Below are positions 4,726 to 17,412 of a stretch of 64,000 bases of DNA, in pieces. The notes under the pieces were generated by a model. That model worked only from the letters and a program-made list of their open reading frames with translations. It did not search any database and had not been told where the DNA came from. Every line of letters begins with the position of its first letter. The stretch's first letter is position 1. The stretch is from Chthonomonas sp. (GTDB lineage Bacteria; Armatimonadota; Fimbriimonadia; Fimbriimonadales; Fimbriimonadaceae): positions 124,001 through 188,000 of the forward strand of contig JAEURP010000009.1 in the NCBI GenBank assembly GCA_016788585.1. Reading direction: 5' to 3'. The translations under genes and the position numbers were made by a program.

Positions 4726-6171
4726 GTGCCAACCAAGAACGTCCAGTCCAATATGCAGCTAAAGTCAGATCGCGATAAGATTGCGCATTTGCTTCGCCGG
4801 TTTGGCTTAGGAGCTAGCGAGGCTGAGCTTGAATACTATGTTCCAAAGGGCCTGGCGGGCACGATAGACGCCTTGCTCCAGCCCGAGGGCGATGATGGCT
4901 TTACTGCCCAGCCAACGCGGTTCGCTCTCAACAATAACAACCTCAATATGCGGGGGGCAGAGGCTTGGTGGCTCAGCCGGATGATCATCACCCAGAAGCC
5001 CCTTCGGGAGAAACTGACCGTATTCTGGCATGACCACTTTGCGACCAGCGCAGAAAAGGTAGACGCGGCGATTCCCATGATCGCCCAGAATGAGCGCATT
5101 CGGGCCGCCGCCCTTGGGCCGTTCGAAGATCTCCTGCTATCCATGAGCCGCGATCCGGCCATGATCTACTGGTTAGATAACCAGCTCAATAAGAAGGGCA
5201 AGCCAAACGAGAACTTTGCCCGAGAAGTGATGGAGCTTTTCTCCCTTGGAATCGGCCACTATACAGAAGTTGACGTCCAGGAAGCCGCAAGGGCCTTTAC
5301 CGGATGGGGCTATGGCCGAAGGGGGCCCGGTGGACGGCAGGCGGTGCAGGAGAATCGCCTGCCTAGAGCGGGTGTTTCATTCCTGTTCGATGAGAATCAG
5401 CACGACGAAGGCATTAAGACAATCCTTGGTAACAAGGGTAATTTCAATGGCGACGATGTAGTTGGAATCCTGACAGGACACCCTCAAACTGCGACCCACA
5501 TCGCGAAAAAAATGTGGGAGTTTTTTGCATACTCGGACCCAGACGAAAAGCTGGTGGCAAGACTTGCTTCAACCTATCGAAGCAAAGGCCTGAGGACAGC
5601 CGTTTTGGTGCGCGCCATTATGGAGGCACCCGAGTTCTATTCCGATAGGTGCGTCCGCAAGCTTTACAAAAACCCAGTTGACTTCTGCATTGCTACGTTG
5701 CGCTCTCTGGGCGTTGGAACGCAGCTGAAGACTTTGCTCGACGCCGACCCCGAGTCAACCCAGGGGAGGGGCGTTCTCGCCGCCATGATCCAAGTGTCTG
5801 GAACGATGAAGTCGATGGGCATGCAGATGTTCTATCCACCGGACGTTGCCGGTTGGGAATGGGGCGAGGCATGGATCAGTACTTCGACAATGGTCGAAAG
5901 GATGAAGTGGGCAGATAAGCTCTTTGGTCCGAGAGGCTTGTTGCGGCAACCTGCCTTGCGCGCTGGGCTCGGGAATGCTCTTACTGGATCGGACACTGAG
6001 GAGGATTTTGTCAAGAGCCTCTGCTCGCTATTCGACGTGCCCATTCCGGCGAGCAAGATGCCGACATTGGTCGAGGCTTCCAAGCGAACGGATTTCAATC
6101 GCGACCCGCTCGGCGCCGCCGCCAACGTGTCGCGCCTCATATTCTGCTTGCCTGAGTTCCAATTCGCGTGA
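4726..6171 (+). CDS. DUF1800 family protein
   Basis: A 481-residue member of the DUF1800 family, recognised from the N-terminal HLLRRFGLGASEAELE block, the central LREKLTVFWHDHFATSAEKV block, and NENFAREVMELFSLGIGHYT followed by AARAFTGW. The biochemical role of the family is not established. Members are commonly found next to DUF1501 genes in Planctomycetes and Proteobacteria, but no DUF1501 gene is present here. The GTG start at 4726 is accepted; an ATG at 4753 would also leave the whole conserved region. No convincing signal peptide is seen. It lies between a terminator and tyrS and is probably expressed separately. Confidence 0.85.
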   Translation: MPTKNVQSNMQLKSDRDKIAHLLRRFGLGASEAELEYYVPKGLAGTIDALLQPEGDDGFTAQPTRFALNNNNLNMRGAEAWWLSRMIITQKPLREKLTVFWHDHFATSAEKVDAAIPMIAQNERIRAAALGPFEDLLLSMSRDPAMIYWLDNQLNKKGKPNENFAREVMELFSLGIGHYTEVDVQEAARAFTGWGYGRRGPGGRQAVQENRLPRAGVSFLFDENQHDEGIKTILGNKGNFNGDDVVGILTGHPQTATHIAKKMWEFFAYSDPDEKLVARLASTYRSKGLRTAVLVRAIMEAPEFYSDRCVRKLYKNPVDFCIATLRSLGVGTQLKTLLDADPESTQGRGVLAAMIQVSGTMKSMGMQMFYPPDVAGWEWGEAWISTSTMVERMKWADKLFGPRGLLRQPALRAGLGNALTGSDTEEDFVKSLCSLFDVPIPASKMPTLVEASKRTDFNRDPLGAAANVSRLIFCLPEFQFA

Positions 6172-6173
6172 AG

Positions 6174-6179
6174 TAAACT
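6174..6179 (+). promoter_or_regulatory. Candidate -10 element of tyrS (leaderless)
   Basis: TAAACT ends 8 bases before the tyrS ATG at 6188, and there is no ribosome-binding site. A transcript starting at the usual distance from this hexamer would have a leader of only 1-2 bases. No good -35 was found. Confidence 0.35.
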
Positions 6180-6187
6180 CCTTGTCG

Positions 6188-7384
6188 ATGACCATTGACG
6201 AGCAAATTGCCCTCATGCGACGGGCTACGGTCGAGATTATCAGCGAGGATGACCTACGCAAGAAGCTCAGCAGTGGGCGGCCCTTGCGCATAAAGCTGGG
6301 TGTCGATCCAACGGTCGCGCATGTTACTTTGGGTTGGGCGGTAGTGCTTCGCAAGCTCCGTGATTTTCAGCAGCTTGGCCACACGGCATGTCTCATCATT
6401 GGCGACTTCACCTCGATGATTGGCGACCCAAGTGGCAAATCCAAGACTCGCCCTCAACTCTCACGCGAGCAAGTGGAGGCGAATGTGGTGGAGGTGAGCA
6501 AGCAGGTTTATAAGATCCTCGATCCTGATCGAACAGAGATCTACTACAACAAGGACTGGCTCGGCAAGATGACATTTGAGGATGTGATTCGCCTGACGTC
6601 AAGGTATACGGTGGCAAGGATCCTCGAGCGCGATGACTTCAGCAAACGGCTCAGTGAGAACCGGCCCATCTCGATGCACGAGATCCTCTACCCGCTGTGC
6701 CAAGGCTACGATTCTGTTGAAATCAAGGCGGATGTCGAATTGGGCGGTAACGATCAGAAGTTTAATAACTTGGTTGGGCGCAATCTCATGCAACAGTTTG
6801 AGCTCGAGCCTCAGGTGGTTATCCTATCCCCGCTTTTGGTCGGGACGGACGGCAAAGAGAAAATGAGCCAGTCGCTCGGAAACTACATCAGCGTTATCGA
6901 CACGCCAGACGAAATGTTTGGCAAAACAATGTCGATTCCCGATGAGCTTATGGAGAATTGGTTTGAGCTTTGTACCGACGTTCCAATGGACGAAGTGCAG
7001 CAACTGCTCCAGGCGACGGAGAACCCTCGCGATGCCAAGCGACGCTTAGCCAAAGAGATCATCACGCTCTATCATTCGGCGGAAGCGGCGGTAGCTGCCG
7101 ACGAGGAGTTCTTGCGCCGGTTCAGCCAAAAGCAGCTTCCCACGGAGATCGCGGAAGTAAGTATCCCGGGAGACCTGGTTTTTGACGGTATGGTGAGCAT
7201 AGCGGCGCTCATCGCTCATTGGGGCCTAGCGAAGTCGAATGGCCAGGCCAAGGACCTAATGAAAGCAGGGGCCGTGAGTATCGACGACGAACGGGCGAAT
7301 GACCCCCAGCATCGATATGTGCCAGCAGAGCTTGTGGGCAAAGTGATTCGCGTTGGAAAGCTCAACTACCGACGGGTTGTTTGA
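6188..7384 (+). CDS. tyrS: Tyrosyl-tRNA synthetase
   Basis: A 398-residue class I aminoacyl-tRNA synthetase charging tRNA-Tyr with tyrosine. The HIGH-like signature appears as HVTLG at 45-49 after KLGVDPT. The KMSKS loop reads KMSQS at 225-229 (KEKMSQSLGN). A C-terminal S4-type RNA-binding domain covers roughly residues 335-398 (AKDLMKAGAVSIDDERA). The frame is open far upstream into the DUF1800 gene, but homology begins at MTIDEQIALMRR, so the ATG at 6188 is chosen. No Shine-Dalgarno sequence precedes it. A bidirectional terminator follows. Confidence 0.95.
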   Translation: MTIDEQIALMRRATVEIISEDDLRKKLSSGRPLRIKLGVDPTVAHVTLGWAVVLRKLRDFQQLGHTACLIIGDFTSMIGDPSGKSKTRPQLSREQVEANVVEVSKQVYKILDPDRTEIYYNKDWLGKMTFEDVIRLTSRYTVARILERDDFSKRLSENRPISMHEILYPLCQGYDSVEIKADVELGGNDQKFNNLVGRNLMQQFELEPQVVILSPLLVGTDGKEKMSQSLGNYISVIDTPDEMFGKTMSIPDELMENWFELCTDVPMDEVQQLLQATENPRDAKRRLAKEIITLYHSAEAAVAADEEFLRRFSQKQLPTEIAEVSIPGDLVFDGMVSIAALIAHWGLAKSNGQAKDLMKAGAVSIDDERANDPQHRYVPAELVGKVIRVGKLNYRRVV

Positions 7385-9123: not shown

Positions 9124-11625
9124 ATGAAGGCGGTCGTCATGGCAGGAGGGGAAGGGTCACGGCTACGGCCAATCACTGCCAATCGCCCAAAGCCGTTAGT
9201 CCCGGTTGCTAATCGTCCGATCATGGAGCATATCATCGAGCTCCTGAAGAAGCACGGCATCACAGAGATCGTCTCCACTCTTTTCTACCTGGCAGATGAG
9301 ATCACCAGTGCCTTTGATGACGGCTCCGACCTCGGCGTCTCCATGTCTTACAGCGTCGAAGACACACCCTTAGGCACAGCTGGCAGTGTCAAGAAAGCCG
9401 AAGCCCAGTTGCGCGACGACACCTTTGTTATCGTCAGCGGCGACGCCATGACGGATTGCGATCTCACCAAAGCGATCGCATTTCATAAAGAGAAGGGGGC
9501 TGTCGCAACGCTTGTTCTCTACCGAGTTCCCACCCCTTTGGAGTTTGGCGTTGTCATTACCGATGCCGAGGGCCGGGTCGTGAGGTTCTTGGAAAAGCCC
9601 AGCTGGTCCGAGGTTTTCAGCGATACCGTAAACACGGGGATGTACATTCTAGAGCCCGAGATCTTTGATCTCATGGAGCCCGGGAAATCGTATGATTGGT
9701 CTCAAGACATTTTTCCCGAACTCTTGCGTCAGGGGCGTCCAATTTTTGGCTATGTGATGGAGGAGTACTGGTGCGATGTTGGCAATCTTGGCCAGTACCG
9801 CGAAGCGCAAGAGCATGTACTCAGCGGAAGTACCTCGCTGGAAGTGCCTGGGAATGAGGTTCAGCCCGGTGTCTGGCTTGGCGCAAACTCAACGCTAGAC
9901 GACGAAGCGTTGATCGTGCCACCGGTTTGCATCGGTCGTAACTGCAAGATAAAAAGGGGAGCTCGTATTGGCCCTTATACGGTAATCGGCGACCATGCGC
10001 TGGTCGAAGAAGGAGCCGTAATCGAACGGTCCGTTATCTGGGACTCGTGCTACGTCGGTGTTAATGTTGGGATTCACAGCGCGATTCTAGGATCTCGAGT
10101 AACGGTCAAGCGCGATTGCTCCATTCGCGAAGACGCGGTTATTGGTGATCGTTGCCTGCTAGATGCCGGATGCACGATCCGCCCCAGGATCAAACTTTGG
10201 CCAGACAAAGTGATTGAGCGAGGCTCGATCGTGACGATGTCGCTGGTTTGGGGCAATAAGTGGCGAGGTTCCTTGTTCCGAGAGCTAGGCGTAGCAGGGC
10301 TATCCAACATAGAAATCACCCCCGACTTTGCCGCCCGACTTGGCTCTGCCTTCGGGACTACGTTGCGGCCGGGTTCGACCGTTGTCACCGGGAGGGACAG
10401 CAGCCGTAGTAGTCGAATGACCAAGCGGGCGCTGATGGCTGCCTTGCTAAGCACCGGATGTGAAGTGCTCGATCTTCGTTCGACGGCTGCGCCAATCATG
10501 CGACACTTCGTTCGGGCCAGCGGTGCGGCGGGCGCCGTCTACGTTCGAAAGCTTCCTGGTAATAGCCGTGTTTCCCTAATTGAGTTCTTTGATGCACAGG
10601 GGATGTACATGGGTCGTAATCAAGAGAGAAAGCTTGAGTCTGCTTTCTTCCGAGAGGATTTCGTTCGTGTTGATCCCGATGATCTGGGCTCTATCGTGCT
10701 GGCCAGCCGGGCGGTAGAAGAGTATCAAGCCGATTTCGAACGTTTGCTAAAGAAGTCTGATGGCAGCAAACGGGTCAGGGTCGTTTGTGATTTTGGCTAT
10801 AGCTCGATCAGCGCCATCTACCCTCAGATGCTGGCTCACGGCGGCGTTGAAGCGATCAATACCCATAGCTATAATGACGCTCGGCTTGCGCCGCGCTCTA
10901 CGGAGGACATTTCACGGCATCTGGAAAATCTTCGCCAGATTGTTTCAAACCTTAGTTACGACATGGGGGTTCTCTTCATCGACGAAGGAGAGCGTCTTGC
11001 TCTCGTCGATGATAGGGGCCGAGTCTTGGATGGAGTCAAACTGCTGGCTGCCTATGCCGCTTTGGTAGCCCAGACGGTCACAAACCCGGTCATTGGAGTG
11101 CCGATCACCGCGCCTTCTCGACTCGAGGAGTATCTCGCGAGTAAGAAGGTGCGGGTCGTCCGTACCAAGGCGAATGTGAGGGCCCTGCTTGAGGCTAGCT
11201 CGGAAGAAAAGGTTACTTTTGCCGGCGACGAAAAGGGTGGGTTTTTCTTCCCTGAATTCCACGCTGGGTTCGATGCAATGTACGGGTTCTCAACCCTGCT
11301 CGCAATGCTCCAGGAAACGGGCAGTTCGATTGGGCAGGTCGTAGATGAACTTCCCGCCTTTCATATGGGCTATGAGTTGGCCCATTGCCCGTGGGAGGTC
11401 AAGGGCTCGGTGATGCGGCAATTGGCCGAAGAGTTCCAGAGTATCGAACATGTCGAACTCTTGGATGGCATCAAGATCTTTGATGGTAATGCTTGGGTGC
11501 TCGTCATTCCCGACTCGGTTGAGCCAGTTTTCCACGTTCACGCCGAAGCTGAGTCAGACAGCGAGGCCGAACGGATCGTCAAAAAGTTCGCAGGCAAGAT
11601 TCTCGAAATGCAAGAAGGCGCCTAG
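9124..11625 (+). CDS. Mannose-1-phosphate guanylyltransferase / phosphomannomutase-like fusion
   Basis: An 833-residue three-part protein. Residues about 1-235 are a nucleotidyltransferase ([20 protein letters not shown], then [10 protein letters not shown]). Residues about 250-370 form a left-handed beta-helix of hexapeptide repeats. From about 375 onward there is a phosphohexomutase-like region ([20 protein letters not shown]). Similar fusions occur in Cyanobacteria, Chloroflexi and relatives and are annotated as mannose-1-phosphate guanyltransferases. The mutase part lacks the phosphoserine motif TASHNP: the equivalent stretch at about 466-482 reads [13 protein letters not shown]. It is therefore probably regulatory or structural rather than a mutase. 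A complete phosphomannomutase is encoded at 41953-43311. Role: likely NDP-sugar supply for glycans or polysaccharide. Confidence 0.85.
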
Positions 11626-11638
11626 CTTGAAAGAATCT

Positions 11639-11724
11639 TGGTGCGCGGGACTGGACTCGAACCAGCACGCTTTGTGGGCGCTACCACCTCAAGGTAGTGC
11701 GTCTACCAATTTCGCCACCCGCGC
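11639..11724 (-). tRNA. tRNA-Leu (anticodon GAG), CCA encoded
   Basis: On the minus strand the sequence folds as a class II tRNA. A 7-bp acceptor stem (GCGCGGG with CCCGCGC) begins at 11724 with discriminator A. The anticodon stem CTACC/GGTAG encloses the loop TTGAGGT, giving anticodon GAG. A long variable arm and a T-arm with GGTTCGAGTCC follow. The 3' CCA is present in the DNA at 11639-11641. The gene converges on the 833-residue gene, whose stop lies 13 bases away. Confidence 0.95.
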
Positions 11725-11738
11725 ACGGTAGTGGCGAG

Positions 11739-11744
11739 ATTGTA
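11739..11744 (-). promoter_or_regulatory. Candidate -10 element of tRNA-Leu
   Basis: On the minus strand TACAAT lies 14 bases before the mature tRNA 5' end. Upstream TTGGCA could serve as a -35, but the spacing of 20 bases is long. An inverted repeat TGCCA-AC-TGGCA (11765-11776) overlaps that position. Confidence 0.5.
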
Positions 11745-11787
11745 CCCCTCGCCTTCAGAAATTCTGCCAACTGGCAATAATTTATGA

Positions 11788-11808
11788 CATGAGCCTATAA
11801 GACTCATG
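11788..11808. promoter_or_regulatory. Inverted repeat upstream of hsp20, possible operator
   Basis: CATGAG and CTCATG form a perfect 6-bp inverted repeat with a 9-base spacer, about 73 bases before the Hsp20 start. The geometry recalls CIRCE (inverted repeat with N9), but the sequence does not match CIRCE. A repressor-binding site for heat-shock control is plausible. Confidence 0.4.
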
Positions 11809-11880
11809 AAACTTTAGCGCGATAGCATGCGTTGAATAAGGAGAGCCTCCCTTCTGCGGGGGCCAGTAAAGGAAAACAAG

Positions 11881-12318
11881 ATGAAGACAATTGTACGTTT
11901 AGATCCATTTCAAGAACTTCGCCGAATTTCCCAGCTTTGGGAAGAGCCTTCTCTTGCGGCGAACACGACCCAATTGATTCCACTCGACGTCTTTGATGAC
12001 GGCGAGAGTTTCTTTGTCCGCGCTTCCGTTCCGGGTATCGAACCCAGTGAACTCGAAGTGACGATTGAGAAAGACATTTTGACCCTGCGAGGTGAGCACA
12101 AGACCGTGAACACCGCAGAGAACACGAAGTTCTACCGACAAGAGGTGAGCTACGGCGCATTCACTCGCTCGATTCGGCTGCCCGACACCGTAGATACCGA
12201 GCAGGCTGTAGCGACCCATGAGAACGGGGTCGTCACCGTACGCTTCCCTCACCGCGAGGAAGTCAAGCCCAAGGCTTTGACCATTCAAGTAAAGACGAAC
12301 GAAACAACTAACAACTGA
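11881..12318 (+). CDS. Hsp20/alpha-crystallin small heat-shock protein
   Basis: A 145-residue ATP-independent chaperone that holds unfolding proteins for later refolding. The alpha-crystallin domain spans about residues 36-130: it opens with PLDVFDDGESFFVRASVPGI, includes VTIEKDILTLRGEHK, and has the family signature ENGVVTVRFPHRE near its end. A short N-terminal arm (FQELRRISQLWEEP) matches the usual Hsp20 layout. An AAAGGA ribosome site precedes the ATG. It is monocistronic: an inverted repeat lies upstream and a strong terminator follows, which fits individual heat-shock regulation. Confidence 0.92.
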   Translation: MKTIVRLDPFQELRRISQLWEEPSLAANTTQLIPLDVFDDGESFFVRASVPGIEPSELEVTIEKDILTLRGEHKTVNTAENTKFYRQEVSYGAFTRSIRLPDTVDTEQAVATHENGVVTVRFPHREEVKPKALTIQVKTNETTNN

Positions 12319-12339
12319 TTCCAACCATCCAATCAATTG

Positions 12340-12366
12340 GGGCGCGAGCTAAGCTCGCGCCCTTTT
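12340..12366 (+). terminator. Intrinsic terminator after hsp20
   Basis: A GC-rich stem (GGGCGCGAG / CTCGCGCCC, loop CTAAG) is followed by TTTT. Confidence 0.9.
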
Positions 12367-12424
12367 CTCTGCCCGACCTAAAATGGTTTGAACGCATCTT
12401 GCGGTACGCGGCACTCACTCCCCA

Positions 12425-12436
12425 GGAGGCGCCTCC
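12425..12436 (+). promoter_or_regulatory. Perfect 12-bp palindrome containing the ribosome-binding sequence
   Basis: GGAGGCGCCTCC sits 6 bases before the ATG of the ECF sigma gene at 12443. The 5' half is a Shine-Dalgarno sequence and the 3' half its perfect complement. It could limit translation by pairing between mRNAs or serve as a dimeric repressor site. A hairpin in one RNA would need a smaller stem because the palindrome has no loop. Confidence 0.45.
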
Positions 12437-12442
12437 AAACAG

Positions 12443-12952
12443 ATGCTTACTCAGATGCTAAGGCGAAGTACCGCGATCCACCTGGACGTTGAATCATTGG
12501 CTGAAGCGCATTACGATGCGATTTGGCGATTTTGTTTTCGACGTGTCGGGCGTGAGCTTGCGGCCGACGCCACACAAGAAACCTTTCTCACCGCGCTCCG
12601 GCGTGCTTCTTCCTTCCGAGGCGATTCGGATGCCAAAACCTGGCTCTTTGGAATCGCGCTCAACACCTGCCGCTCTCTGAGCCGAAAGGAAAAACGTGAC
12701 CTGCCCCTCGATGAAATCGTCGAGCTTCAAGCGCAATCCGGCACGCCCAACCTTTCCGCCATGCGGCTCACCCAAGCCCTGAAGAAGATCAGCCCCGAGC
12801 ACCAAGAGGTGGTGATTCTGCACGAAATGGATGGCTTCAGCTATCTGGAAATCGCCCAAATGATCGAGATTCCCGAAGGCACCGTCAAGAGCCGTTTGCA
12901 CCACGCGTTTCTCGCCCTGCGCAAGCACCTAAACAGCGAGGAAGACCTATGA
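12443..12952 (+). CDS. RNA polymerase sigma factor, ECF subfamily (second)
   Basis: A 169-residue ECF sigma factor. Region 2 occupies about residues 18-85 (YDAIWRFCFRRVGRELAADA, then DAKTWLFGIALNTCRSLSRK). Region 4 occupies about 105-165 (SYLEIAQMIEIPEGTVKSRL). A short variable linker lies between them, as expected for the group. It differs from the sigma factor at 656-1252 and pairs with a different kind of anti-sigma: the stop overlaps the next gene by ATGA at 12949, so the two are translationally coupled. Its regulon is unknown; the partner's large periplasmic domain suggests a signal from the envelope. Confidence 0.9.
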   Translation: MLTQMLRRSTAIHLDVESLAEAHYDAIWRFCFRRVGRELAADATQETFLTALRRASSFRGDSDAKTWLFGIALNTCRSLSRKEKRDLPLDEIVELQAQSGTPNLSAMRLTQALKKISPEHQEVVILHEMDGFSYLEIAQMIEIPEGTVKSRLHHAFLALRKHLNSEEDL

Positions 12953-14214
12953 ACCTGAAAGAAGATTTGAAAGCCTATGTGGACGGCGAATTGACCGCCG
13001 ACCAAGTGAAGGAGATCGAGCGCGCCGCCGCATCGTCCGAGGAGATTCGTGACGAAATCGCCGCCCTGCGTTCGCTAAAAGAAGAGTTTGCCGCTCTCAC
13101 CGCGACTCCAGAGCCAAAGGGAAAGATTGCGTTGATACGGCGTCTACAAGTGGCGAAGCCCGCCCGTAAGCCCAACTTCATGTGGGCCTATGCAGGTGCG
13201 GCAGCAGCTCTACTGATCGGAATCGCGATCATTGAGCCCGTTCTTTCCGGTGGTGGGGGAGCTGCTGAGATGGCGACTCCTAAAACTGAAGCTGCTGTCG
13301 CAAGGGAAGAAAGCGCCAAAGCTCCTAGCTATGAGGATTCGGCTGAAAGCGGAGAAATGAAGTCCAAGGTCGAGGGGCGACCATCAAATTCTTTCGCAAA
13401 CGAAAGGGACCTTGATCCAAGGTTAGGTCGTTCCCAGGCAGGGTCGGCAATGCCCGAAGACGCCGACACAGGTGTAATTAGGTCAAACCCTCGAGATAGG
13501 GTGTCCCAAGCAACCAAGCCCGCGCCTCAACTCCCCAACCTCCCGACCAACCCAGGTCGCGACATCATCTACAACGGCTCGATCAGCCTCGAAGTCCCTG
13601 ATGTCACGAAGTCGGTAAACGAAGCGATCAGCCTCGTCCAAGGCTTGGGTGGCTATGTGGTCTCGACCGAGTCCACCCTCGACGGCGATGGAACCGCGAA
13701 CGCCTACTTGGAAGTCCGAATCCCGGCCGCCAAGTTCGACATTGCGAACAAGTCGCTCTCGAAGTACGGCAAGATTCTGAGCCAGACTTCGAGCGGTCAA
13801 GACGTGACCCAACAGATCGCCGAGCACGAGGGCCGAACCCGAGCCCTTGCCGTCGCCGAGCAGGAGTACATTCGCATGCTCAACGCGACCCGCAACACGT
13901 CGGCGCGCCTCGAAGTGCGCCGCCGCCTCGATGAAGTCCGAGCCGAACGCGAAGGCCTCCGTGCGGCCCTCAAGCGCATGAAAGACCTCGCTGCCCTCTC
14001 GACCCTCTCGATCGAGTTCACCGGCGAAGAAACCGTCAAGCCAGATGAGCCCAGCGCCAACTGGTGGGACGATAGCAACACCGGTGCCTCCAACGCCCTC
14101 GGATTTGTCGGAAGGATCCTGGGCCGCGTGGCGATCTACCTGGTCTACCTCTCGCCCATATGGATCACCGGCCTCGCGGTTTGGTGGTTTGCCCGGAAGC
14201 GGGCGGTGAAGTAG
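12949..14214 (+). CDS. Membrane anti-sigma factor with DUF4349 domain
   Basis: A 421-residue membrane protein coupled to the upstream sigma factor. Residues 1-70 are a helical, cysteine-free cytoplasmic region (MNLKEDLKAYVDGELTADQV), like non-zinc anti-sigma domains. A membrane segment lies at about 78-99. A low-complexity linker spans about 105-200. A DUF4349-type domain covers about 205-365 (IIYNGSISLEVPDVTKSVNE) and includes a predicted coiled coil (RLEVRRRLDEVRAEREGLRA). A second membrane segment at about 385-412 is followed by the basic end FARKRAVK. DUF4349 proteins are usually stand-alone lipoproteins or membrane proteins of unknown role. The fusion implies the DUF4349 region acts as sensor for the sigma factor. 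Confidence 0.8.
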   Translation: MNLKEDLKAYVDGELTADQVKEIERAAASSEEIRDEIAALRSLKEEFAALTATPEPKGKIALIRRLQVAKPARKPNFMWAYAGAAAALLIGIAIIEPVLSGGGGAAEMATPKTEAAVAREESAKAPSYEDSAESGEMKSKVEGRPSNSFANERDLDPRLGRSQAGSAMPEDADTGVIRSNPRDRVSQATKPAPQLPNLPTNPGRDIIYNGSISLEVPDVTKSVNEAISLVQGLGGYVVSTESTLDGDGTANAYLEVRIPAAKFDIANKSLSKYGKILSQTSSGQDVTQQIAEHEGRTRALAVAEQEYIRMLNATRNTSARLEVRRRLDEVRAEREGLRAALKRMKDLAALSTLSIEFTGEETVKPDEPSANWWDDSNTGASNALGFVGRILGRVAIYLVYLSPIWITGLAVWWFARKRAVK

Positions 14215-14227
14215 AGGGATAGTTGCT

Positions 14228-14291
14228 GGACATGGCGGGACATAGAGGGACATGGCTCTTAGCGATTGTCCCTCCACATCCCGCAATGTCC
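14228..14291. repeat. Long imperfect inverted repeat (26-base arms)
   Basis: Arms 14228-14253 and 14266-14291 match at 21 of 26 positions around a 12-base loop. Each arm holds repeated GGACAT or GGGACAT words (TGTCCC on the other arm). It begins 13 bases after the anti-sigma stop and could act as a terminator-like or mRNA-end structure, but there is no T-run. It may also be a small dispersed repeat. Confidence 0.6.
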
Positions 14292-14305
14292 CTCCACCGT
14301 CCCGC

Positions 14306-14328
14306 ATTAGCCATTAGCCATCGACCAT
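14306..14328. repeat. TTAGCCA heptamer repeat, short copy
   Basis: Two adjacent ATTAGCC units are followed by AGCCATCGACCAT (14316-14328). The same 13-base word recurs at 27723-27735 beside a six-copy heptamer array in the same family. The rest of this intergenic stretch to 14430 shows no gene; a GGAG ribosome site for the next gene lies near its end. Confidence 0.6.
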
Positions 14329-14430
14329 AAACCCTCGACCTAAACCCGCATTTTCCCCCGCCCACATCTCCACCAAAAGGGGGAAAGAAGTTTTTGGCAA
14401 GGGGATGCTTCCTGGGCCGTTGGAGACTAA

Positions 14431-15246
14431 ATGTACGAGGAGTATTGGGGACTAAAAGAGCAGGCGTTCGGACTAACGCCCGATCCACGATTTCTATATC
14501 GAAGCCAAGGGCACGAGGACGTCCTGACCATGCTACACCACGCGGTAACCCGCAATAAGGGCGCCGCCGTGCTTTGGGGCGATGTCGGCCTCGGCAAAAC
14601 CACGATCAGCCGCACGCTGATCCAAGGGCTGCCCGCCGATCACTATAGCGTTGTACTGATCGTCAATCCGATCCTAACGCCGACGCAAATCGTCCAAGAA
14701 ATCCTGCACCAAATCGGCGTTGAAACGACGATTAAGAATCGCCAAGCGCTGATTCAACTTCTGCACGAATCGCTGCTTGCCGAGCACGCCGCTGGGCGGC
14801 ATGTCGTCCTCATGATCGACGAGGCCCACCTCGTCCGCTCGACGGCAACTCTCGAAGAACTCCGGCTCCTCTTGAACTGGCAAATGAACGACCAGTTTTT
14901 GATTAGCCTCGTTCTCATCGGTCAAAACGAGCTCCGGCCCAAGTTGGCAAAGGCGCCAGCGCTGGAGTCTCGGTTGGCCATCAAGTGCGCCCTGAGCCCG
15001 CTCAGCGCCATCGAGACCGGCGAGATGGTGTTGCACCGAATGCGAGTCGCTGGCTACTCGGCCGAGAACAGCCCGTTCACACCCGACGCGGTCTTCCAAT
15101 TGCACAAGGCGAGCAAAGGCTATCCGCGCATCATCACGACCCTGGCCGACCAGGCGCTCATCTTTGGCATGGCCCACAAGGCTCAGCACATTGATGGCTT
15201 CATGATGCACGACACCTGGCGACAGTTCAGCGGGGAGGCTGCATGA
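14431..15246 (+). CDS. ExeA/MshM-like AAA ATPase
   Basis: A 271-residue P-loop ATPase of the ExeA type. It begins with the family hallmark YWGLKEQAFGLTPDPRFLYR. Walker A is at 50-57 (GDVGLGKT) and Walker B at 125-131 (VVLMIDE), followed by a sensor-like Q in LVLIGQNELR and an arginine-rich C-terminal lid. Full ExeA proteins carry a membrane segment and a peptidoglycan-binding domain; both are absent here. Similar stand-alone ATPases act in type IV pilus or MSHA systems, in secretion, or (TniB-like) in transposition. Start: GGAG five bases before the ATG. It overlaps the next gene by ATGA, so the pair is an operon. Which process it serves is unclear. Confidence 0.8.
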   Translation: MYEEYWGLKEQAFGLTPDPRFLYRSQGHEDVLTMLHHAVTRNKGAAVLWGDVGLGKTTISRTLIQGLPADHYSVVLIVNPILTPTQIVQEILHQIGVETTIKNRQALIQLLHESLLAEHAAGRHVVLMIDEAHLVRSTATLEELRLLLNWQMNDQFLISLVLIGQNELRPKLAKAPALESRLAIKCALSPLSAIETGEMVLHRMRVAGYSAENSPFTPDAVFQLHKASKGYPRIITTLADQALIFGMAHKAQHIDGFMMHDTWRQFSGEAA

Positions 15247-15623
15247 ACTTGGTGGACGCCATCCGCAAAACAAGCTCGCATCACCACGCACCTGCGGTGA
15301 CCGAGACAATCACTGCGGAGGCTCACGACGCCCACGCGCATCACAAGGAGGTTTCTATGTCGCACTCTCAACACTTTGTCCGGATCGAGCTGTTTCTGTC
15401 ACCAGATCAGATTCAACATCTCTTGAAAGACTCGATCGGTGCCCAGCGCACGATCATGACCTCACACGAGGTGGCCCAGCTACTTCGAACGACATCCAAA
15501 AACGTCGAGCACCTCGCCGAGGAAGGCAAACTTCCTGGCTTCTTGCTCGAAAACGCATGGCGATTCAATCGCGAAACCATCGACGAATGGCTCGCCGCTC
15601 ATAGTCAACATAAGGCCGCGTAG
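15243..15623 (+). CDS. Excisionase-type (MerR-like) helix-turn-helix protein
   Basis: A 126-residue protein if translation starts at the ATG coupled to the ATPase gene. The C-terminal half (about residues 70-117) is an excisionase-family winged helix: MTSHEVAQLLRTTSKNVEHL, then LENAWRFNRETIDEWL. The first 38 residues are His-rich and low-complexity (SSHHHAPAV, AHDAHAHHKE). Inside the frame, AAGGAGG at 15345-15351 stands 5 bases before an in-frame ATG at 15357, giving an 88-residue form that holds the entire recognisable domain. Both forms may be made, or the shorter may be the real product. Such domains bind DNA in excisionases and regulators; the partner here is the ExeA-like ATPase. Confidence 0.75.
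   Translation: MNLVDAIRKTSSHHHAPAVTETITAEAHDAHAHHKEVSMSHSQHFVRIELFLSPDQIQHLLKDSIGAQRTIMTSHEVAQLLRTTSKNVEHLAEEGKLPGFLLENAWRFNRETIDEWLAAHSQHKAA
15345..15351 (+). promoter_or_regulatory. Strong internal ribosome-binding site in the HTH gene
   Basis: AAGGAGG is spaced 5 bases from ATG 15357, in frame with the HTH protein. It is among the best Shine-Dalgarno matches in the window and favours initiation at 15357 over 15243. Confidence 0.65.
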
Positions 15624-15630
15624 CCTTACC

Positions 15631-15672
15631 GGGCACCCGTGCGTCCAACAGGGCATGGGTGCTCATTTTTTT
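15631..15672 (+). terminator. Intrinsic terminator overlapping the next start codon
   Basis: The arms 15631-15642 and 15653-15664 pair over 12 positions (with G-U pairs) around a 10-base loop. A run of seven T at 15666-15672 follows. The downstream gene's ATG (15655) lies inside the right arm, so the terminator and start site cannot work independently. Confidence 0.7.
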
Positions 15673-17412
15673 CGCACACTTGCGGCTGGTGTCGCAGTTC
15701 TCGTTTCGGCTTTTGCGCTTGGCCAAGGTAGCGCTTCGGGATATGGACAAGGAGGCATGGGCGGATTTGGTGGATCGGGGGGAGGATCGATTAGTTTCGC
15801 CGATGAATCGCCGCCCCCTAACCGGAATCTATATGCTCATCTCTTGAGTCTCCCCGAGCAGGAGCCCAACAACACTCAACTATGGACATCCAAAACAGCG
15901 ATCCTAACTGCAGGAGACAAAGTCGAATTCAAATTTGATCTTATGGCCAACGACGTTCTCATGGCCACTGCGGAGGGGGAGGCGTTTGATGCCGCGCTGT
16001 CAGTTACCGATTCGACGAATCAGATCTTGGCAAAGAACGATGACCGATTTACTGGAAATCAGGCGCCGTTTGTGCTACATCGGGCCAGAAAAGATGGCAC
16101 TTACTCCCTAAATGTAATTAGCTATCGCTCAACAGGAGGTGGGCGATTCACGGTCAAGTTTCGAACCCTAAGGTCGAGAGATGGAGCCTTTGGAAGGCAA
16201 GTTTTTCCAGCCGCAGACAAAGAACCCACCCATCGAAACACATTTCGACTGACCCTAGCAAAAGGCCAAATTGTTTCGTTGTACTCAAACTCAGGTTCAG
16301 TTGCCAAAGTTTTTGGTCCAACGGGTGTTCCCGACGCCGACTTTGAGTTGATACCCTCCGGCACCTACGGCCCGATCCTTCGAGCGAAGTCCGATGGCGA
16401 TTACTACTTCGATTACAACAGTTCACGCTCAGACGATTTCGAAACACGCATCGAAATCGTTCCTGTGGTGCCTGCAGGAACGGTCTTTGAGAAAGAACTG
16501 AAGTTCGGGCCACATCAAACCCAGATTCTAGAATTTCCTGTTACGAAGGGAGGGCTAGTTTGGACCACCCTATCGGGAACGAACTTGTTTTCAATCGTCA
16601 GCGCTCCGGAAGGTGAAGACAAGAGAACGACCGGTGACGGATCGACTTGGTTTACCAATCACTCCTTCACAGAGTGGAATGCGAGGTACGGCGATGACGA
16701 TGATGTTGTGCGGATTTTCAAGGCCGATGGTTCCGCTAGGATGGTCATACGATCGCTCAGGTCTCAAGGACAGACCATTAGAGTCCAAAACCGCGATACG
16801 ATTCCTGAGTGGAAAGATGGAATCGCGTCCCAGGAGAAGATGGGTATCGGCGAAGTTCGGCTTTTCAAGATGACCTCGGCGAAATCCCAACTCATGCGTG
16901 TCGCCGTCCAAGCCAGTGGCTTTGTGCCAAGACTCGACATCTTCAGCACTATGGGAGTCCTCGCCAACTCGCTCAGCGATCGCGACAACCTCCGCGCCGC
17001 CGACGACCTCTACTTCCCCAACGCCGGCGAGTGGATCATCCGCGTCACCTGCACCGGTTTCGGCGGCTCAGGCCCATTCACGATGCGCCGCGATGTCCCC
17101 AAGACGGTTCCCTATGCTCTGGGCTCGAACTTGCCCTTCAAGTTGGAAGGCAATAACTTCGGCCTTTTTGAGGTGAACCTAGAGAAGGGTAAGCGATACG
17201 AGTTACTGACCAATCAAGGCGATCGCCGGTTCTCCGTGGACGTTCTCAATGATGAAGGCGAGTTCCTGCGCCCCCAAACCATTCGCTTCGACGGTCTGTG
17301 TGCCGGCTACTTCGTGCCCGAACAGTCAGGCCGCCACCGCCTCTGGATTCGCGGCGAACCCGGCGACTTCATGACCCGCCTCAGCCTCCACAAGCCACCA
17401 ACCGTTCCTTAG
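15655..17412 (+). CDS. Secreted protein with pre-peptidase C-terminal (PPC)-like domains
   Basis: A 585-residue exported protein. The signal peptide (AAGVAVLVSAFALGQ) is followed by a Gly-rich stretch (about residues 25-45) and repeated beta-sandwich units of about 110-130 residues that resemble pre-peptidase C-terminal domains. The first unit contains EQEPNNTQLWTSKTAILTAG and later DGTYSLNVISYRSTGGGRFT. No protease or other catalytic domain is recognisable, so it may be a structural or binding surface protein. The ATG lies within the terminator of the preceding operon, and no alternative in-frame start is available before the signal peptide. The stop overlaps the convergent sdhA stop by 3 bases. 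Confidence 0.7.
   Translation: MGAHFFRTLAAGVAVLVSAFALGQGSASGYGQGGMGGFGGSGGGSISFADESPPPNRNLYAHLLSLPEQEPNNTQLWTSKTAILTAGDKVEFKFDLMANDVLMATAEGEAFDAALSVTDSTNQILAKNDDRFTGNQAPFVLHRARKDGTYSLNVISYRSTGGGRFTVKFRTLRSRDGAFGRQVFPAADKEPTHRNTFRLTLAKGQIVSLYSNSGSVAKVFGPTGVPDADFELIPSGTYGPILRAKSDGDYYFDYNSSRSDDFETRIEIVPVVPAGTVFEKELKFGPHQTQILEFPVTKGGLVWTTLSGTNLFSIVSAPEGEDKRTTGDGSTWFTNHSFTEWNARYGDDDDVVRIFKADGSARMVIRSLRSQGQTIRVQNRDTIPEWKDGIASQEKMGIGEVRLFKMTSAKSQLMRVAVQASGFVPRLDIFSTMGVLANSLSDRDNLRAADDLYFPNAGEWIIRVTCTGFGGSGPFTMRRDVPKTVPYALGSNLPFKLEGNNFGLFEVNLEKGKRYELLTNQGDRRFSVDVLNDEGEFLRPQTIRFDGLCAGYFVPEQSGRHRLWIRGEPGDFMTRLSLHKPPTVP

Follow-up and report, generated by a model that had tools for sequence, protein, structure and literature searches.

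Results

An AAA+ ATPase gene overlaps an HTH_17 gene in the window

The window, by which we mean the whole 64,000-nucleotide stretch of DNA analysed here, covers bases 124001-188000 of contig 16 in a genome of 2.38 Mb. The open reading frames confirm what a preliminary description of this DNA had reported, two genes at 14431-15246 and 15243-15623 that share an ATGA. The features of the locus are as follows:

14216-14303, no strand assigned: imperfect inverted repeat between the anti-sigma and ATPase genes, a probable RNA hairpin (repeat counts, folding)
14431-15246, + strand: ATPase gene, 271 aa, ExeA/MshM-like AAA+ (ORF, Pfam, NCBIfam, fold model)
14578-14601, + strand: Walker A, residues 50-57, GDVGLGKT; G50, G53, G55 and K56 invariant in 37 aligned sequences
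14803-14823, + strand: Walker B, residues 125-131, VVLMIDE; D130 and E131 invariant in 37 aligned sequences
15243-15623, + strand: HTH_17 protein gene, 126 aa, its start overlapping the ATPase stop (ORF, Pfam, NCBIfam)
15243-15272, + strand: N-terminal motif MNLVDAIRKT (order consensus MNLADAIRxA), predicted helix at residues 3-11 (alignment, model)
15273-15377, + strand: variable, mostly disordered linker (pLDDT under 50 at residues 14-20 and 24-34)
15453-15602, + strand: winged-HTH domain, residues 71-120, of BldC/excisionase fold (pLDDT block means 89-94)

On the 5' side of the ATPase gene lie an ECF sigma factor gene and a DUF4349 gene (Pfam), the latter an anti-sigma gene that adjoins the repeat region; on the 3' side of the HTH gene lies a gene whose best Pfam match, PPC, is below the PPC cut-off. 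Among the seven window proteins given to Pfam (9124-17412) we found no transposase, no integrase partner for the HTH protein and no ExeB-like protein, and within this range the earlier remark that no transposase or integrase is nearby holds. The ATPase is the only match of its kind in its own genome.

The pair heads the pilMNOPQ operon in relatives

We compared 41 loci, the window and 40 of the 53 other ATPase-positive relatives, and drew the counts from HMM searches because mechanical ORF calling hid genes (four loci lost the ATPase, and some HTH and Pil genes were hidden as well). The HTH gene directly follows the ATPase gene in 41/41 loci, the two overlapping by 4 bases in 29 of them and being spaced by -1 to 3 bases in the others. 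In 39/41 loci (window included in the count) pilM comes next, on the same strand, and 37/41 have the full pilMNOPQ set (pilM, pilN, pilO, pilP-like, pilQ) within the fetched stretch; of the 39 loci with pilM, one is without only a pilQ match and in one (G003) the contig ends within pilM. The window and its sister G004 are the only loci without an adjoining pilM. The pil genes pass family models, one relative's PilM scoring 230 bits against TIGR01175 (cut-off 133) and the window genome's own operon exceeding the Pfam cut-offs (PilM_2 187.3, PilN 49.8, PilO 48, T2SSC 29 and Secretin 114.8 bits).

A second survey of named genomes, which shares genomes with the first and is not an independent sample, kept 80 of 85 confirmed loci, most of them from records named Fimbriimonadaceae, Fimbriimonadales or Armatimonadetes. 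Both the HTH protein and PilM were present in 61/65 loci of one part (L125-L189), the exceptions being two with pilM and no HTH gene (L173, which matches G034, and L184), one with ATPase and HTH alone (L125, which matches the sister) and one cut by a contig end. Of the remaining 15 loci (L190-L204), L192 has the full set, and profiles found no HTH or pil genes in the other 14, mostly from other phyla; pilus genes stand beside close homologues of the ATPase only. One record (L158) is titled Methanoregulaceae archaeon and carries the typical ATPase-HTH-pilMNOPQ operon of this bacterial order, so that it is probably a mislabelled or mixed bin.

The pair therefore heads pilMNOPQ in nearly all relatives examined, and the separate, undescribed small system that the preliminary description had favoured is not borne out. 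Finding the orthologues consistently in pilus or secretion operons, with no HTH partner, had been named as the observation that would speak against that system; the pilus operon was indeed found, in 39/41 loci, with the HTH partner present. The pilus link of the pair in relatives is well supported.

The genes of the pair are co-inherited with few exceptions

Across 61 genomes, the window genome and 60 relatives, the ATPase was found in 54 and the HTH protein in 53; 53 genomes had both, one the ATPase only (G034) and seven neither. Conservation and co-inheritance of the pair, for which a survey had been proposed, are thus confirmed. The match is single in 51 of the 54 ATPase-positive genomes and occupies the same operon place across genera, which is not the pattern of a mobile element. 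In a phylum-wide draw of 201 genomes, both proteins occurred in 24 genomes of the order, and among those listed 11 genomes of the order were without the pair (one, G030, with a weak HTH match). Seven of these 11 were also without an orthologous pilM by our reading of the matches (matches of at most 31% identity in G108, G175, G184, G189 and G030; none in G032 and G230), and four (G002, G023, G220, G238) kept it, as did G001, a genome 78% complete in which the pair was not found. Because these five keep pilM without the pair, we regard the pair as dispensable, an accessory and not a core part. All of these states occur in genus g20, where G108, G175, G184 and G189 are without the pair and without orthologous pilM, G023, G220 and G238 have pilM without the pair, and G134 has both.

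The ATPase is not strictly dependent on the HTH protein, since G034 carries ATPase and pilMNOPQ with the HTH gene missing and the more divergent locus L184, outside the order, carries an ATPase 49% identical directly 5' of pilM, again with the HTH gene missing. Another genome outside the order (G076) has the pair, then two ORFs, then pilM and pilN. Given these loci outside the order, the ATPase-pilM link may be older than the HTH protein, or the HTH gene may have been lost in L184. A further 18 Armatimonadota loci, some of them on short contigs, encode a distant ATPase (E 1e-25 to 1e-53); none showed a pil gene, and in three (L236, L237, L238) a different type of HTH_17 protein is encoded close by. 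In one of these three, from another Armatimonadota family (L236, 3244-8073), the genes after the distant ATPase encode a MinD/ParA-like ATPase, an adenylate/guanylate cyclase-domain protein and the different HTH_17 protein; the layout of L237 is similar.

PilM was considered as the partner of the pair and dropped. At 76 conserved PilM columns, pair-lackers of the first set deviated more (G002 10, G023 13; median 2), and this signal failed with 11 further genomes; four pair-lackers deviate at 10-13 columns, G034, in which the HTH gene alone is missing, at 2, and pair-bearing genomes at up to 12 (G118 12, G216 10, G203 10, G134 7, G233 6, G169 6, G194 5, G147 0).

A sigma28-type promoter motif precedes the operon

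Upstream of the ATPase gene we found a motif near T(A/G)A(A/G)GTTT, 12 bases, (C/G)CCGATAA, which is of the FliA/WhiG (sigma28) type. Counting loci that score at least 10 of 16 within -80 to -50, 33/41 qualify, and in 32 of these 33 the motif starts 57-67 bases before the ATPase gene. The spacer is 12 in 28/33 sites; the E. coli consensus spacer for this promoter type is 11. Within 250 bases upstream, scores of at least 12 occur in 28/41 loci vs. 7/458 control upstream regions and scores of at least 13 in 14/41 vs. 0/458, and letter shuffles of the 250 bases gave 17/820 and 3/820, respectively; the 28 high scores include some at positions other than -57 to -67 (L085, L092, L097, L098). A FliA/WhiG sigma factor passes its cut-off in 58/61 genomes, the window genome included. 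The pair thus heads the pilMNOPQ operon in the order, mostly behind a sigma28-type promoter motif, and the recurrence of the motif suggests that pilus assembly of the order is wired to the FliA/WhiG sigma factor. The motif can be seen upstream of the ATPase gene in L062-L100, across the order.

WhiG control of type IV pili has been reported for Rubrobacter, whose pilus genes have a flagellar-type promoter ahead of them with -35 TAAA and -10 GCCGATAA (excerpt of PMC8325347). A flagellar-type promoter ahead of pilus genes is common to both cases; unlike the Rubrobacter promoter as described in that excerpt, the one here precedes a pilMNOPQ operon and has its 12-base spacer in most sites.

At the displaced pair of the window and its sister no sigma28-type promoter was found (best scores 9 and 10 of 16). 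Upstream of pilM these two genomes have a similar motif (scores of 11 and 12 of 16) with TACCTGG after it, in the window genome from about position 6034 of L115; scores of 11-12 upstream of pilM in the longer stretches (G000, G004, G001, G023) are weak alone.

The HTH protein has an atypical recognition helix

The HTH protein passes the cut-offs of Pfam HTH_17 (35.7 bits; cut-off 27) and of an excisionase family model (30.9; cut-off 28.8), matches phrog_66, 'excisionase and transcriptional regulator' (2e-7), and falls short of the BldC model NF033787 (16.6; cut-off 77). Residues 69-121 of its model align with BldC (6ama_A; Z 7.7, rmsd 2.2, 53 aligned), and the fold is also that of Xis and other excisionases; a PDB sequence search returned no close relative of the ATPase or of the HTH protein (best E 0.0081 and 0.12, respectively). 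Fold and HTH_17 model therefore liken the protein to BldC, RdfS, Xis and other MerR-like winged-HTH proteins, from which it differs by an acidic and variable recognition helix, a long linker whose length varies among orthologues, and an N-terminal MNLADAIR helix that is conserved (M1 and R8 do not vary in 62 aligned rows; mean pLDDT about 64). Invariant residues of the HTH domain itself are T73, R82, F108 and W116.

We compared the domain with other HTH_17 domains of these genomes (22 of 30 loci, eight being dropped as the pilus HTH itself), which represent fewer independent proteins than 22 because several are near-identical orthologues. The recognition helix is not basic as it is in those proteins; its mean charge is -0.95 (range -3 to 2, n=62) vs. 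+1.68 (0 to 3, n=22), with -0.50 vs. +3.41 for the whole domain and +1.97 vs. +3.41 for the wing. Position 89 is basic in 0/62 pilus HTH proteins vs. 9/22 others and position 101 in 19/62 vs. 21/22, and the surface columns of the recognition helix are among the most variable of the domain. Since positions 105, 107 and 110 are basic in 52, 62 and 61 of 62, the last two being residues retained in the wing, some DNA affinity is possible. Because the recognition helix is acidic on average and variable, we think that the HTH domain probably binds a protein and not DNA. The assignment to the excisionase class thus stands for the family models and the fold, and the DNA binding that went with it is doubtful. 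CbpM, contained in an entry matched at Z 5.1 (3ucs_B), illustrates that a fold of this type is able to bind protein.

The first candidate partner would be the ATPase, because distances of these two proteins agree best and the pair is nearly always lost together. In the 28 of 41 loci with all five genes in simple ORF clusters, the partial correlation of distances given PilM is 0.68 for ATPase-HTH, compared with 0.35 for ATPase-PilN, 0.44 for ATPase-PilO, 0.52 for HTH-PilN and 0.49 for HTH-PilO.

Alternatively, the two genes could form an operon-leading regulatory pair: the HTH protein would regulate the pilus operon by binding DNA, and would itself be modulated by the ATPase. The HTH_17, excisionase and phrog_66 matches, the BldC/Xis fold and the conserved basic wing residues are all consistent with this, as is an element, TAC(C/T)xGG, that recurs just after the -10 box in most operons listed; the acidic, variable recognition helix argues against it, and so does the distribution of the element: three pair-lacking genomes have it ahead of pilM (TACTGGG; L292, L293, L294), a like element (TACCTGG) still precedes pilM in the window genome, where the pair lies elsewhere, and none is evident in G002, another genome lacking the pair. 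We have set TAC(C/T)xGG aside as an HTH operator because of its presence in the three pair-lacking genomes, and consider the regulatory reading rather unlikely.

The repeats upstream of the ATPase gene, proposed in the preliminary description as a binding site to be tried, are real and bear on the same reading. GGGACAT has four matches in the window vs. 0.13 expected, three of them upstream of the ATPase gene and the copies mainly laid out as one imperfect inverted repeat; 14205-14330 folds into a strong hairpin (z -4.2). The longer pattern occurs once in the window and, with at most two mismatches, at six places in the genome vs. one for the reversed control, which makes it a sparse dispersed element. 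Of the 41 loci, the window alone has at least two GGGACA/TGTCCC within 250 bp upstream of the ATPase gene, so that conserved binding of the HTH protein to these repeats is unlikely; being a dispersed element not found in the other 40 loci, the repeat was rejected as a conserved HTH operator.

The pair is displaced from the operon in the window genome and its sister

No pil genes follow the pair in the window itself; the window genome's pilMNOPQ is about 177 kb away, in the region of about 316.2-321.5 kb of contig 16. The sister G004 has the same order of ECF sigma, DUF4349, ATPase and HTH genes at 76% DNA identity, which makes an assembly error unlikely. Between the two genomes the displaced ATPase has an omega of 0.03 with a dS of 1.6 (near saturation). 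At 110 order-conserved columns it departs at 12 positions in the window and 13 in the sister (median 1), so that a changed role is conceivable; the in-operon ATPase of L098 has 59 departures at the same columns. The HTH protein departs at only 2/21 order-conserved columns (A10T, A77V).

The HTH protein is 99% identical between window and sister, and we have not counted this as constraint because it falls in a near-identical tract that reaches the end of the sister contig (L061). From about 15151 to that end (window 15151-15620), a stretch that covers the 3' end of the ATPase gene and all of the HTH gene (97% DNA identity), identity per 60 bases is 87-100%, compared with 76% for the contig as a whole; the tract may reflect recombination or a chimeric contig end.

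In the place that the ATPase-HTH pair takes in relatives, between promoter motif and pilM, the window genome has a small ORF of 71 residues (L115, about 6099-6314), and by eye a similar one precedes pilM in the sister (L117).

One possibility is that in this lineage the displaced pair has acquired a function that has nothing to do with pili and might involve the ECF sigma and anti-sigma genes that it adjoins in both genomes. Absence of the sigma28-type promoter and the departures of the ATPase are in keeping with such a change, and we nevertheless judge it improbable, for the window genome has all five pil genes, the ATPase is under purifying selection and the HTH protein has hardly departed from the order. 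Since it is still under strong purifying selection, the displaced ATPase probably serves the intact pilus in trans, and this is the least certain step of our interpretation.

The ATPase resembles ExeA-type proteins without the ExeA appendages

We found that the ATPase passes Pfam AAA_22 (5.3e-24, 85.4 bits; cut-off 27). Residues 50-57 and 125-131 are what we take to be the Walker A and Walker B motifs, and their residues are unchanged across 37 ATPase sequences with identity down to 32%; it thus has the P-loop AAA core of ExeA/GspA. There was no peptidoglycan-binding domain among its Pfam matches. The predicted structure (mean pLDDT 91.9) aligns as an AAA+ fold over residues 1-271 with no segment outside the fold, which leaves no periplasmic domain of the ExeA/GspA kind. 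The highest 19-residue Kyte-Doolittle mean is 1.45 vs. 1.71-2.25 in eight PilN controls; because 13/41 orthologous ATPases exceed 1.6 (maximum 1.72, overlapping the lowest PilN control at 1.71), hydropathy alone is not clear-cut. Together with the model, these values suggest that there is no clear membrane helix of the ExeA type, a conclusion weak by hydropathy alone, and the description of the protein as an ATPase without the membrane and peptidoglycan-binding parts of ExeA agrees with them.

The fold is that of Cdc6/ORC, TnsC and MuB (Cdc6 1fnn_A, Z 20.4, rmsd 4.2, 255 aligned; TnsC 7plh_A, Z 20.4, rmsd 4.0, 248 aligned; MuB 8xvc_A, Z 18.5, rmsd 3.8, 229 aligned); no ExeA/GspA ATPase structure was among the Foldseek / VIA-align matches listed, which excludes nothing. 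Comparison with the MADS defence system gave only 44.1 bits for MAD1 (NF047737; cut-off 80) and E 0.0039 for PADLOC mad1.

The best NCBIfam match, TIGR03015 (8.3e-56), aligns near full-length over residues 1-264 and likens the protein to the XrtA/PEP-CTERM ATPases, which raises the possibility of an ATPase of polysaccharide or exosortase loci that came to lie in a pilus operon by chance. Among distant homologues (32-42% identity, mostly other phyla), one stands beside glycosyltransferase and WbqC genes (L195) and another beside a polysaccharide-export gene (L199). The score of 189.4 bits is below the cut-off of 324.5, however, as are those of all seven ATPases scanned, L195 and L199 included; of the other distant homologues, L204 has an ABC transporter as its neighbour, L194 a SPOR protein, L193 and L198 HD or c-di-GMP phosphodiesterase-like proteins and L202 nothing recognised, and close homologues have the pilus operon, so that this origin seems very improbable.

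That the pair is an independent transposition- or partition-like DNA-handling system is less probable still: Pfam TniB (28.4 bits; cut-off 22.4), phrog_296 'DNA transposition protein' (2.4e-28) and the TnsC and MuB fold favour it, but Cdc6 matches the fold equally, TIGR03015 scores far better, the conserved neighbours are pilus genes, and the single copy in a fixed operon place is not a mobile pattern. Of the likeness to transposition or partition systems drawn earlier, the fold and the weaker sequence similarity to TnsC/TniB and MuB remain, without a transposase partner among the genes examined and with pilus assembly as the context.

Discussion

In the reading that we favour as probable, the two proteins form an accessory module, in the cytoplasm, of the machinery that assembles type IV pili, with the HTH protein as the adaptor of the ATPase. 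The adaptor role is one that we infer, and the mechanism that follows is a reasoned proposal. The ATPase would act like MshM/ExeA, its ATP-driven oligomerisation aiding assembly, placement or tuning of the PilM-PilQ complex; the HTH protein would dock on the ATPase through its conserved N-terminal MNLADAIR helix and present, on a flexible linker, a winged-HTH domain turned protein-binding; and in the window genome and one sister the displaced pair would still serve the intact pilus in trans.

Pairing of a TnsC/MuB-type ATPase with an HTH protein is otherwise known from DNA transposition (TnsC with TniQ). It is possible, and we suggest this only tentatively, that a TnsC/MuB-fold ATPase and an excisionase-type HTH protein were domesticated for pili across the order, the HTH protein serving as an adaptor without DNA recognition and one sub-lineage working in trans.

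For its function, the ATPase may best be compared with MshM of the MSHA pilus, V. cholerae VC0403, which is 43% identical to ExeA and is encoded in the msh pilus operon together with PilN-, PilO- and PilQ-like genes (excerpt of PMC4624765). By published description and gene context, both would be ExeA-like ATPases without extra domains in a pilus operon, in our case in the relatives and not in the window. The present operon differs in being of the pilMNOPQ type with the ATPase gene first, and in its HTH partner, of which the excerpt of PMC4624765 makes no mention for MshM. MshM is a mandatory gene in the MSH system model (excerpt of PMC6668835). Deletion of mshM in V. cholerae left surface pili the same as in wild type, so that one would not necessarily expect the pair to have a large effect on piliation, and loss of mshM suppresses the motility defect of a cdgJ mutant (excerpt of PMC4624765). 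ExeA/GspA of type II secretion is likewise an ATPase tied to a secretin machine, ExeAB being needed for assembly of the ExeD secretin, and unlike the ATPase here ExeA carries a periplasmic peptidoglycan-binding domain (excerpt of PMC6532946).

No title or abstract opening in the literature found describes a pilus ATPase with an HTH partner, or the present operon in Fimbriimonadales. The pair is of interest because MshM is a pilus component whose function is described as unknown (excerpt of PMC9815625), and a second setting of an MshM-type ATPase, at the head of pilMNOPQ and with a dedicated small partner, offers a handle on what such ATPases do.

The C-terminus of the HTH protein (window 15615-15620) is a further peculiarity. 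It ends in -VA or -AA in 50/62 sequences vs. 83/697 other ORFs, which were picked mechanically and include some that are not genes. We liken this end to ssrA, a protease tag, and it may be a tag of that kind.
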